From: Leptolyngbya subtilissima AS-A7
GTDB taxonomy: Bacteria; Cyanobacteriota; Cyanobacteriia; Phormidesmidales; Phormidesmidaceae
DNA: 64,000 bases
Direction of reading: 5' to 3'
NCBI RefSeq assembly: GCF_039962255.1
Contig: NZ_JAMPKY010000003.1
Location: 310,001 to 374,000, forward strand
The stretch's first letter is position 1. Each line of letters starts with the position of its first letter. Of the stretch, positions 60,662 to 64,000 are shown piece after piece. The position numbers were made by a program, and so were the translations under genes. The notes under the pieces are model-generated. The model ran no database searches. It had not been told where the DNA came from and saw nothing but the letters and a program-made list of their open reading frames with translations.

Positions 60662-61138
60662 TTAGATGGGTTTGGAGGTTAGTACTAGACGCAGCTTGGC
60701 GTGGATGAGGTTGAGCTGCGCCATGCCTAGGTCAACGTCGCCTTCGACGACGACACCGGTATCGAGGAGGCGATCGAGCAGCTCTAAAATGGTGGGGTTC
60801 TGATTTTTTTGACCGGGGTAGTAGTTGCCTTCTTTGGGCAGCAGGGTGCCGATTTCCCCCAGGTCGATATTGAGGTCGGCCGGGTCTACATCAAAGATTT
60901 CGCACATTGAGACGACCTGCTCTTCTAGCTTGCGCAGGCTGTCGGCGGCTCGTTCGAGGTCATTGTCGTTCAGGTCGCCCGATTCCATGCGGCGAATGAC
61001 CTGAGCTTCCATCAGCTGCCGCACCAGCTCAATGACGGTGAGCAGCAGCGGCGCTAGGCCCGCATCAGTTTTGGCGGGAGGCTGTAGCGCTAACGTGGTC
61101 GACAGGTCTGGCTCGGCATTTTCGGAAGTCATAGCCAC
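60662..61138 (-). CDS. gvpK: Gas vesicle protein K
   Basis: The 158-residue protein has the GvpK pattern: LAPLLLTVIELVRQLMEAQV, IRRMESGDLNDNDLERAADS, MCEIFDVDPADLNIDLGEIG and GVVVEGDVDLGMAQLNLIHA then KLRLVL. GvpK is a conserved accessory protein needed for gas-vesicle assembly, not a main shell protein. It begins GTG, with an ATG two codons later. It lies at the 3' end of the visible gvp genes and 28 bases from the convergent kinase. Genes gvpF, gvpG, gvpV and gvpW, usual in cyanobacteria, are not downstream of it here. Confidence 0.93.
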   Translation of the reverse strand: MAMTSENAEPDLSTTLALQPPAKTDAGLAPLLLTVIELVRQLMEAQVIRRMESGDLNDNDLERAADSLRKLEEQVVSMCEIFDVDPADLNIDLGEIGTLLPKEGNYYPGQKNQNPTILELLDRLLDTGVVVEGDVDLGMAQLNLIHAKLRLVLTSKPI

Positions 61139-61184: not shown

Positions 61185-61379
61185 CTATGGCCGATTTTGC
61201 CACTGCTGTTGAAGCCACTGGCGACGGGCTTCTTCTGCTTGGGCTCGACTTTGTTGTTGGCCTATGCGGCTTGCATCGACTGGGCGTAGGCGATCGCCCT
61301 GGCTGCGGCTAGGGACCGAGCGAAAGCTAGGAATTGTACGGCTAGTAGCAATTTGCCGCAGGGTGCGAATCGTCAGCAT
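61185..61379 (-). CDS. Small basic protein at the gvpX position
   Basis: The 64-residue product starts MLTIRTLRQIATSRTIPSFR, is rich in Arg, Gln and Ser and ends in AEEARRQWLQQQWQNRP, a likely amphipathic helix. The Met at 61379 is preferred to an earlier one (61454), whose leader overlaps low-similarity sequence near gvpJ. I do not recognise a family. Lying between gvpJ and gvpK, it occupies the place of gvpX in other cyanobacterial gas-vesicle operons, and that is the only reason to link it to vesicles. Confidence 0.55.
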   Translation of the reverse strand: MLTIRTLRQIATSRTIPSFRSVPSRSQGDRLRPVDASRIGQQQSRAQAEEARRQWLQQQWQNRP

Positions 61380-61472
61380 AGTAGTTCTTTGGGGTGTTGG
61401 GTTGCATGGGAAACCCCTGGATTCTTCAAGAACCCAAGGGTTTGTCTGTGGCAAATCGACTGGGTTGCTGGC

Positions 61473-61823
61473 CTAGCTTACGGGTTCGGCAGAGCGTAGG
61501 GCCTTAAGTTCGGCCTCTAAGGTTTCTAAACGAGTTTGGAGCTGTTGATTGGCCTCTAGCAGTTCATTGGTGCGGCTGCTGAGGTAGGGATCGCTCTCCC
61601 ACCAATTAATACCGATTTCGCGAGCTTTATCGACCGAGGAAATGATCAGGCGAATGCGGATGCTCAGCAGTTCTGTAGAACCGACGGAGACTGAGATATC
61701 TCCGGCAATCACAATGCCTTTGTCGAGCACTCGCTCAATGACATCCACCAGGGAAGACCCCTGGGTGGCGGTAGCCATGCTGCGACCGGGTTGGGGGCGG
61801 GTCGTGGGGGTAGAGGTGGTCAC
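61473..61823 (-). CDS. gvpJ: Gas vesicle protein GvpJ (GvpA family)
   Basis: A 116-residue member of the GvpA/J/M shell family: SSLVDVIERVLDKGIVIAGD, VSVGSTELLSIRIRLIISSV and DKAREIGINWWESDPYL are the conserved core. The long C-terminal coiled tail (NELLEANQQLQTRLETLEAE) and the N-terminal TSTPTTRPQPGRSM set it apart from GvpA. It is a minor shell or tip component needed for vesicle nucleation. It starts GTG at 61823, which agrees with the family N-terminus; an ATG at 61778 would drop the leader. gvpN ends 9 bases upstream, so the genes are co-transcribed. Confidence 0.93.
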   Translation of the reverse strand: MTTSTPTTRPQPGRSMATATQGSSLVDVIERVLDKGIVIAGDISVSVGSTELLSIRIRLIISSVDKAREIGINWWESDPYLSSRTNELLEANQQLQTRLETLEAELKALRSAEPVS

Positions 61824-61832
61824 GGATTACCT

Positions 61833-63200
61833 TCAGTTAGAACTCAGCTGGTAGCCTTGGAGCTGCCCGTCAGTTTCCTGTTTTTCTATTAAGCCCTGAT
61901 CGAGCATCGACTTGACGGCATTGACAGCCTGAAAGCGGTTCAAATCTAAGGCTCCCTCAATGTTAACGAGAGATGCGGTGCCGGTCGTGTCGAGATAGTC
62001 AAAAATGCGAGTTTCGATATCATCGTTGGGGCTGACCTGCACCTTGAGCACCTCCTCTGGCAAAGACTCGGCTTCAGCGGGTGCTTCTACTATGGTTTCG
62101 CTTTGAGTCTCAGGGCTCATGGACTCAGCGAGGTCTTCACCTTGAAGGTCTTGGGCCTCAATGACGGGCTTATCATCAATCGCAACATCGTCCCCGGTAG
62201 ACTCAACCAGCGGCTCAAGGGGCTGGAGCGGGGCGTCATCCTCTTCTTCACCATGGAAGCGGGCTGCGGGCTGGGCCTCGGGCTTGAGGGTGAGGTCGTT
62301 AACCAGCGCGGCCTGGGATACCACAAAGCGGTTGAACAAGTTCCACAGGTGGCGAGTGGCGTCTGAGGCGGGCTCTTTGGAGCGGGCCAGCAGAATGTCG
62401 CTGCACACGTCGCGGAAGTCGGCGTTTTCGGCCAGGGGCAAAATGCCGTGGTCGTTGCAGATAGTGGCAATCATGAGACTGGGGCGCAAGCTGGAGACCA
62501 TGTCTGGGGCGACCGACGACTGGAAGGCCTTGACCAACTGCACAATTTGCAGTGCCGCAGAGCTGTCGATGCCAACCTTTTGCACCAAAATTTGCTGCTG
62601 AGCCAGTTCGTCAGGCTCGGGCATGTTGATGGTGATTAGACGGTCCTGGAGCGCATCTTGGGTGCCGTGGACGCCGCAGTATTCTTCGGGGTTAGAGGTG
62701 AGAATGGCGCGGAAGTGAGGGCTGACGCGAATGTACTCGGCCCGGTTGTTGCTGGGGGGCAGCACCAAAAGTTTTTCTTCGAGGGCCGACAGCAGCACGT
62801 TGTTGACCTCGGGGCGGGAGCGGTTGAACTCGTCGTATACCATGGTGAAGCCTTCGCGGCAGGCCAGGGTGAGTCGTGAGTCAGTCCAGTTGTGACGCAG
62901 CTCGTCTTCTACTTTCACAACGCTGTGGATGTAGTTGTCGACCACTTTTTTGCGGGTGTAGCCCGACTGGTTGCCGATCAGGTCTGAGGTTTTGAACTCG
63001 TCATCGCCAAACAGCAGCATAATCGGGCGGGCCAGCAGGTCGGCCAGGTGCAGAGCCAGGGTAGTTTTGCCTGTGCCAGCGGGGCCTTTGAGATGGATGG
63101 AGTACCCCGATTGCAGGTACCGCAGGGCTCTGATGCTGGTGCGCTCTAGGGTGGGGGTGGAGACAAAGTTGCGGGGGCGGGCTTGGAGAACGGTGTTCAC
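61833..63200 (-). CDS. gvpN: Gas vesicle AAA ATPase GvpN with C-terminal winged-helix-like domain
   Basis: A MoxR-like AAA ATPase needed for vesicle enlargement. Residues 1-300 are a normal GvpN: Walker [10 protein letters not shown] (39-47), [20 protein letters not shown], Walker [21 protein letters not shown] (about 119-138), sensor [14 protein letters not shown] and [17 protein letters not shown]. It is 455 residues, roughly 100 more than usual. The extra part is an acidic linker (about 310-392) and a final domain (about 395-455) with [20 protein letters not shown]. The same pattern ends the upstream GvpC-like protein. Starts GTG, overlapping the upstream stop by four bases (GTGA). Confidence 0.92.
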
Positions 63201-64000
63201 AGAACGGCTTCCTCTTGGACGAGATAGGTACGGTCTTGCTTGACGACGAGGTCTTTTTGGATGAGCGATCGCAGCGCGTCTACCGCCTGAAATCGGTTGA
63301 TGCCAAGCTCCGTCTCAATTTCGCTGAGACGGGCACCCTGAGCTAGGTGCAGGTAGTTATAAACCACCTCTTCAAGGGAAGGGGGCTCGGGGGCGGGGGG
63401 CGGTTCCACAGCCACCGCTGCCGGGGCAACTGGGGTCGTGACGGTGGCAACTGGGGCAGAGCGGGTTGCTGCGACAGCGCGAGCAGGGGCGGTCTTGGCC
63501 ACGGCCGTTGGGGCCGGAGCAACCTTGGCCGCAGGAGCTGCCTTAGCTGGTGCTGCTTTGGCGATTACGGGTTTTGGCGCAGCTTTAGAGGCCACCTTTG
63601 CTGGCGCGGGCTCACGAGCAGGTACCGAAGTAACGGCAGGCCGGCTCGCGGGTGAGGGATGGGCTGGAGTCTGAGCTACGGCAGCGCTGCCCCAAACAAC
63701 GTGGGAGAGCTGAGCCCGTTGGGCCTGAAGCTGGTGGCGAAAGTCGGCCAGTTCGGTGAACATGGCGTCTACGGAATCGGTGAGGGCGGCGCGATCGCTT
63801 TGCCGCTGCTCCTGGTTTACTACAGCTGCCTGCTGGCGCACAACGGTCAAGTCTTTGAGGGTGGCCTGTACCTGCACCTGGAGGTCTTCGACGTAGGCGG
63901 TGAGCTGAGGTAGCAGTTCGGCGCGTACCATAGCCTGCTCTTGGCGATAGCCCGCTAGCTCAACAGCCGTTTGGGCCTGAATATTGGCGACCTGTTGCTG
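63197..64000 (-). CDS. GvpC-like gas vesicle protein, 5' end beyond window
   Basis: Reads open from the right edge to the stop at 63197 (267 codons visible); the ATG at 63931 is internal, because the frame continues upstream in the same style. The visible part has about 100 helical residues rich in Gln/Ala with spaced aromatics ([36 protein letters not shown]), like GvpC rod-binding repeats. An Ala/Pro/Lys-rich linker follows. The protein ends in [20 protein letters not shown], a winged-helix-like domain shared with GvpN. Its place just before gvpN is that of gvpC, whose product strengthens the vesicle outside. The C-terminal domain is not part of known GvpC, so the name is tentative. Confidence 0.7.

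Follow-up and report, generated by a model that had tools for sequence, protein, structure and literature searches.

In the cyanobacterium Leptolyngbya subtilissima AS-A7, the gas-vesicle ATPase GvpN and the GvpC protein encoded beside it end in small domains that are by far each other's closest relatives and, judged by alignment and profile searches, share a common ancestor. Both are predicted to be winged helices. We propose that this tail is a protein-docking winged helix duplicated between gvpC and gvpN, and that the GvpN tail binds GvpC tails and so brings the ATPase to the coat, a reading that may well be right and that we hold at about even confidence.

The window, i.e. the whole 64,000-nucleotide stretch of DNA that was analysed, ends within a minus-strand gas-vesicle cluster and cuts it inside gvpC (Table 1). 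The complete gvpC open frame is L002:3197-4417 and encodes 406 amino acids counted from a GTG, its putative start. It shares four bases with gvpN, GTGA, which hold its own stop and the gvpN start. The initial annotation had placed the pair at 61833-63931. Its gvpN end stood, but 63931 is an internal ATG of the gvpC that the window end cuts. GvpN scored 361.6 bits against TIGR02640 (curated cut-off 266.8) and thus belongs to that family. A gvpK/GvpA-like fusion, as found here, is also present in the A. flos-aquae cluster, according to a review (PMC10903477). Between the gvpJ-type gene and gvpK lies an 89-aa frame (61185-61454, minus strand) for which no Pfam or NCBIfam match was obtained at E ≤ 1.

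We named the second protein GvpC because of its body homology and its gene place; among the Pfam or NCBIfam matches of the 406-aa protein at E ≤ 1 there was no gas-vesicle family. The bodies of the tailed GvpC proteins matched Anabaena-type GvpC at 99.3% over 226 columns in hhalign, a value that coiled-coil composition could inflate, and in a search with a profile from 12 Anabaena-type proteins the tailed GvpC proteins were next in rank after the Anabaena type among the best 60 matches. The gene sits between gvpA (named by eye) and gvpN.

Table 1. Features of the gas-vesicle cluster at the end of the window
Feature	Position	Strand	Remarks
gvpK with C-terminal GvpA-like domain (PF00741)	60662..61138	-	same strand and neighbourhood as gvpN
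gvpJ-type gene (GvpA-like)	61473..61823	-	same strand and neighbourhood as gvpN
gvpN, AAA+ ATPase, 455 aa	61833..63200	-	ORF; TIGR02640 match at residues 12-273; AAA+ part, then acidic linker, then winged-helix tail at the C-terminus
GvpN winged-helix tail, 65 aa	61836..62030	-	predicted H-H-H-E-E
GvpN acidic linker, about 114 aa	62031..62375	-	net charge -21; boundaries approximate
gvpC, in-window part	63197..64000	-	open frame goes on to L002:4417; helical GvpC body, Ala/Pro/Lys-rich linker, winged-helix tail
GvpC winged-helix tail, 63 aa	63200..63388	-	predicted H-H-H-E-E
GvpC Ala/Pro/Lys-rich linker, about 98 aa	63389..63688	-	net charge +9; boundaries approximate
GvpA-like gene	L002:4706-4924, past the window edge		adjoins gvpC; named by eye

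Two related tails and their predicted fold

The shared end that the initial annotation had seen in both proteins was confirmed. In a Smith-Waterman alignment, 19 of 48 aligned tail residues were identical and the score was 94, compared with a maximum of 44 in 5000 shuffles, none of which reached 94. A search of its own genome with the GvpN tail, up to E = 10, retrieved nothing besides that tail itself and the GvpC tail (E = 6.4e-6). As a non-circular control we used a profile (A3) of 44 GvpN tails that contained no GvpC tail. In the same genome, A3 matched the GvpC tail with 86.8 bits (3.2e-24) and the GvpN tail with 77.6 bits, while the next other match gave 12.4 bits (E 0.54); this overturns the concern that the similarity might be no better than that of unrelated winged helices. 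Across 18 genomes, A3 yielded 24 matches at ≤ 1.5e-18 (G065:C568 among them was taken by score alone), and the 25th dropped to 1.2e-3 and 20.9 bits. Comparison of the GvpN-tail with the GvpC-tail profile returned 99.9%. The A3 search and the 5000 shuffles together rule out chance resemblance.

AlphaFold2, given 41 aligned GvpC tails and 44 aligned GvpN tails, predicted the same fold for both, with three helices ahead of a two-stranded wing (H-H-H-E-E) and a mean pLDDT of 86 (core about 94) for the GvpC tail and of 88 (core about 95) for the GvpN tail. With the folds in agreement, and a GvpN-tail profile that finds the GvpC tail, the winged-helix-like domain initially described for both proteins holds up. 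Structural matches of the two models reached Z 10.6 and 12.4, and comprised Z-alpha domains, MarR, ROK and IclR regulators, RPA32C, the archaeal Rpa2 winged helix and ESCRT-II; DNA-binding regulators predominate, and Z-alpha domains and such regulators stand at the top. A fold that is common to two models would by itself say nothing on function. At E ≤ 0.1 the Pfam TrmB model (PF01978) hit most tails, 36 of 41 from GvpC and 39 of 44 from GvpN. With 23.9 bits (GvpC) and 14.3 bits (GvpN), however, the window's own two stay below its gathering cut-off of 25.6 bits and thus outside the family, and they differ from TrmB/MarR-type regulators in being parts of gas-vesicle proteins. An invariant Arg marks the start of helix 3 in the GvpC and GvpN tail sets alike, and GvpC tails have a conserved Arg in the wing; we take the GvpC wing (QRDR) to resemble that of MarR-type DNA binders.

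Occurrence across cyanobacteria

The tail pair is widespread in cyanobacteria. A class survey of 388 cyanobacterial genomes with a mixed tail profile (E ≤ 1e-5, up to 15 candidates scored per genome) was positive in 116, with a maximum of two matches per genome. Compared by eye, 115 of these genomes fall among the 178 that have GvpN (E ≤ 1e-40); the match in the 116th, G317, was rejected as a gvp tail, being a MarR-type regulator. We then read 130 gvpN loci, a subset of the 178 made up of 30 from an order search and 100 picked to cover families. Raw counts were 76 loci with both tails, 15 with the GvpC tail only, 12 with the GvpN tail only and 27 with neither (Fisher p 1.6e-8 for co-occurrence in this uncorrected table, relatedness being ignored). 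A renewed search of 17 genomes for the partner tail elsewhere moved L124, L086 and L034 to the first class; a GvpC-like frame and a GvpN piece were read for L124 and L086, respectively, and the gvpC of L034 lies on another contig. The seeming GvpC match of L122 proved to be a decayed GvpN remnant, and this locus was counted as having neither tail. Four cut or broken loci stand outside the classes, one for its broken GvpN frame (L017) and three because the contig begins before gvpC (L023, L026 and L033). In the final count, both tails were found at 79 of the 130 loci, which extends the initially described pair to other gas-vesicle operons; 13 loci had the GvpC tail only, seven the GvpN tail only, and 27 neither.

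The GvpC-only loci are 12 members of family f24 and L150. We rejected the idea that the GvpN tail of this GvpC-only group had merely gone undetected, as the protein ends read consist of acidic linker and lack a winged helix. Three tail-less GvpN proteins of f24 (L067, L069 and L071) have a short end motif in common, ESLIxLLE...EDDL, perhaps a linear motif that replaces the domain. The GvpN-only loci are L115, L119, L120 and L121 of family f32, together with L074, L141 and L143; their seven genomes gave one tail match apiece and no GvpC tail elsewhere. In the Arthrospira family, 28 gvpN loci from 23 of 61 genomes (L238, L243 and L245 coincide by position with members of the 130, and one genome holds both L246 and L254 as copies) were divided into 11 with both tails, eight with the GvpN tail only, nine with neither and none with the GvpC tail only. 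The GvpN-tail profile gave two matches in each of seven named genomes, including Kamptonema, Roseofilum and Arthrospira, and the second Arthrospira match contained an internal stop. Both tails seem to be missing from L118 and L123, which we take to be of the Anabaena flos-aquae type from the likeness of their GvpC to the A. flos-aquae sequence. The idea that the tail occurs in other phyla found no backing: a motif scan with a single peptide pattern matched 148 stretches, and all 55 confirmed loci were cyanobacterial by title. Among the plasmid GvpN matches listed (30 of 85), none extended past residue 294.

Some clusters are built differently. At 11 of 11 loci of families f23 and f5 (L127-L137), an unrelated C-terminal domain of about 60 aa, like VVNDRDTVRDLLAQGANTLKVDPSDILNTLLQM, replaces the GvpC winged helix, and GvpN has no tail; three of the 11 loci are seeds of the profile of this domain, and two copies tested had no Pfam match above cut-off. 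At the four of these loci whose GvpN ends were read (L127, L128, L129 and L134), the protein terminates with the short motif LLDQ(L/I)P. GvpN of genus g7 (G013-G018, G020) leaves profile positions of about 61-95 unmatched and is divergent in the region past Walker A; L159-L161 of this genus have no tails, and the G018 copy carries an in-frame TGA. L228, L229 and L230 are extra gvp clusters in which GvpC is of the Anabaena type and the tail of GvpN is divergent; the same genomes hold a both-tail cluster.

Age, selection and natural losses

The proposal of duplication and transfer of a small domain fared unevenly: duplication between two gas-vesicle genes stands, but it looks old, and a recent transfer inside this genome was not supported. 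A tree was built from 158 of the 179 tails, after removal of identical rows and of 14 loci from the family of the window. The N and C labels required five changes on it as compared with 53 in shuffles, which is compatible with a single origin; the alignment is short (67 columns), 75 of 155 inner branches are open, and 25 N and 9 C tails are intermingled on one weak branch. The tails mostly cluster by protein, not by genome, and therefore the duplication is probably older than the divergence of the families.

Purifying selection acts on both tails. Among pairs from the window's genus with dS 0.05-2 (out of 78), median dN/dS was 0.046 for the GvpC tail (59 pairs), 0.106 for the GvpN tail (44) and 0.028 for the AAA part (78), and some tail residues are invariant across families. 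The GvpC tail is kept under conservation even without a GvpN tail (f24): in five pairs of GvpC-only genomes, dN/dS was about 0.13 and 0.03 in the two that were usable, one having a dS over 2 and two having no dS.

Natural losses affect either tail. In Arthrospira sp. PCC 9108 (L219) and in G404, GvpC stops short of its former tail, a remnant of which is out of frame and interrupted by a stop; the neighbouring GvpN tail is intact. Two Planktothrix-like genomes (G439 and G440) have a 247-aa tail-less GvpC frame and an intact GvpN tail; we infer that they are planktic because a short GvpC is reported for planktic Planktothrix, the account given there being 16-28 kDa in planktic and about 40 kDa in non-planktic strains (PMC5259702). 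The same account describes aerotopes as alike in one benthic and one planktic strain (PMC5259702), and the tail would therefore have no visible effect at that level. In family f32, a tail-less GvpC adjoins gvpN in 11 of 12 loci, and at the twelfth (L124) a tailed GvpC-like frame lies about 6 kb off. Of these 12 loci, five have a GvpN tail, two (L122 and L126) have a decayed one, and the others have none. Loss of the GvpC tail first and of the GvpN tail second is a plausible order for f32; f24 is the opposite case.

Tethers, docking and competing explanations

The long tethers noted in the initial annotation were borne out, with 114 and 98 residues in the window and medians of 91 (GvpN) and 73 (GvpC). 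Almost every GvpN linker is acidic: 87 of 88 have a negative charge, the median being -15. GvpC linkers are Ala/Pro-rich, and 55 of 85 are positive and 22 negative. The suggested opposition of linker charge thus fails as a general rule: among the 70 pairs in which the GvpC linker could be measured, 43 have opposite signs, and therefore the conserved feature is the acidic GvpN tether rather than the charge contrast. The tails themselves have a median net charge of -1 (GvpC) and -2 (GvpN), and of -5 and -7 in the window; 24 of 88 GvpN and 25 of 91 GvpC tails are net positive.

In the docking reading, the duplication that gave gvpC and gvpN the same small winged helix would date from an early stage of cyanobacterial evolution. 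Ala/Pro-rich tethers would hold the GvpC tails off the ribs, and these tails would associate together across the vesicle surface. The paralogous tail of GvpN, on its acidic tether, could take the place of a second GvpC tail at the same face; GvpN would thereby be drawn to the GvpC coat, which it could loosen at the site of new GvpA insertion. The closest function is a haloarchaeal contact. In Halobacterium, GvpN and GvpO are reported to bind a C-terminal fragment of GvpC, with a weak signal for the N-terminal fragment (PMC9372576), and according to a model put forward in a review, the C-termini of GvpC make up a mesh that is broken by GvpN/GvpO binding where insertion takes place (PMC9501494). 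As in the haloarchaeal protein, where GvpN contacts GvpC through a globular C-terminal domain (PMC9372576), the cyanobacterial contact would involve such a domain, and a paralogous docking pair would do the same with one fold. The haloarchaeal domain is described as having a zinc-finger motif (PMC9501494), whereas the window's two tails hold no Cys. Of the collected tails, 20 of 180 have any Cys (first 60 residues taken). Among the haloarchaeal GvpN matches listed, none extends past residue 273 or includes a tail. The winged helices of RPA32C, archaeal Rpa2 and ESCRT-II dock proteins. The GvpC tail fits RPA32C (4ou0) with Z 9.3 and an rmsd of 2.5 over 60 residues, a score that many other winged helices reach; RPA32C and archaeal Rpa2 belong to a different system, and a sequence link between them and the tails was not found.

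Docking between the ATPase and the outer protein, which the initial annotation had raised, is the reading best supported by these data. In its favour count the close kinship, co-occurrence and purifying selection of the tails, their median charge, the acidic GvpN linkers, and the tail-less GvpN of f23 and f5, where GvpC ends in an unrelated domain; the net-positive tails, the want of a general charge contrast between linkers and the MarR-like GvpC wing count against it. A strictly obligate N-C pair is doubtful because of the 13 GvpC-only and seven GvpN-only loci and because, in a mirror-tree analysis, the distances of N and C tails were correlated no more strongly than phylogeny would explain (partial r 0.02, a value reached in 81 of 1000 permutations within families). 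The existence of single-tail lineages suggests that GvpC tails act by themselves too, and self-association would be the simplest account. The tails might even not pair at all, the GvpC tail self-associating as a cross-linker of the coat and the GvpN tail serving separately, in a GvpN oligomer or with some other Gvp protein. Such a separation is favoured by lineages that have one tail or the other alone, by the lack of co-evolution past phylogeny and by the conserved GvpC tail of genomes without a GvpN tail; common ancestry, adjacency and co-occurrence of the tails argue against it, as does the decay of the GvpN tail in L122 and L126, in a family where GvpC is mostly tail-less, and we consider it possible, if doubtful. 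About as tentative is an extension of docking in which GvpC tails would cross-link the coat as a homotypic winged-helix lattice and the GvpN copy would swap in to open a growth seam, with GvpC-tail loss recurrent in planktonic lineages.

Two further explanations dispense with a protein partner. DNA binding by the tails is possible, and would serve to tether vesicles to the nucleoid or to regulate gvp transcription. It would fit the nearest profiles and sequences, which are TrmB/MarR/CodY-type winged helices, the Z-alpha domains and DNA-binding regulators that head the fold lists, and the invariant helix 3 and wing arginines. Against it count the charge of the tails, which is neutral to acidic in most, the scores of the window's two tails below the Pfam gathering cut-off, and the literature view that GvpC coats the vesicle exterior; nucleic-acid binding is therefore unlikely in our estimate. 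The least likely explanation gives the tail no specific partner and takes it for a passive remnant or a solubility tag. Such a tag would suit a tail that is missing, truncated or decayed in most of f32, in Arthrospira and in the two Planktothrix-like genomes, but not the dN/dS of 0.05-0.11 in the window's genus or the residues that are invariant across families.

The domain, its fold and its spread appear to be new; a description was not found in the open-access literature. Known earlier was a match in non-planktic Planktothrix, where one sentence of a 2017 paper gives a 28-residue stretch of GvpC40 as 64% identical to GvpN (PMC5259702). This is the same similarity, and the section in question gives no domain, fold, wider spread or function. 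A review treats the action of GvpN and its contact with the shell as an open question in gas-vesicle assembly (PMC10903477). A paralogous domain on the ATPase and on the coat would offer a concrete, deletable handle on the meeting of GvpN with the shell, through a proposed docking device that is seemingly missing from the Anabaena flos-aquae type used in laboratories, and the tail would be a natural tether for engineering modified vesicles. The tethers can be very long in nature: in the gvpN frames of L018 and L019 (762 and 770 aa), the acidic linker has grown to about 400 residues with a net charge near -100, and in an 880-aa gvpC-like frame (L259, G065:C656) the linker is a long Ala/Glu-rich repeat ahead of the winged-helix tail.
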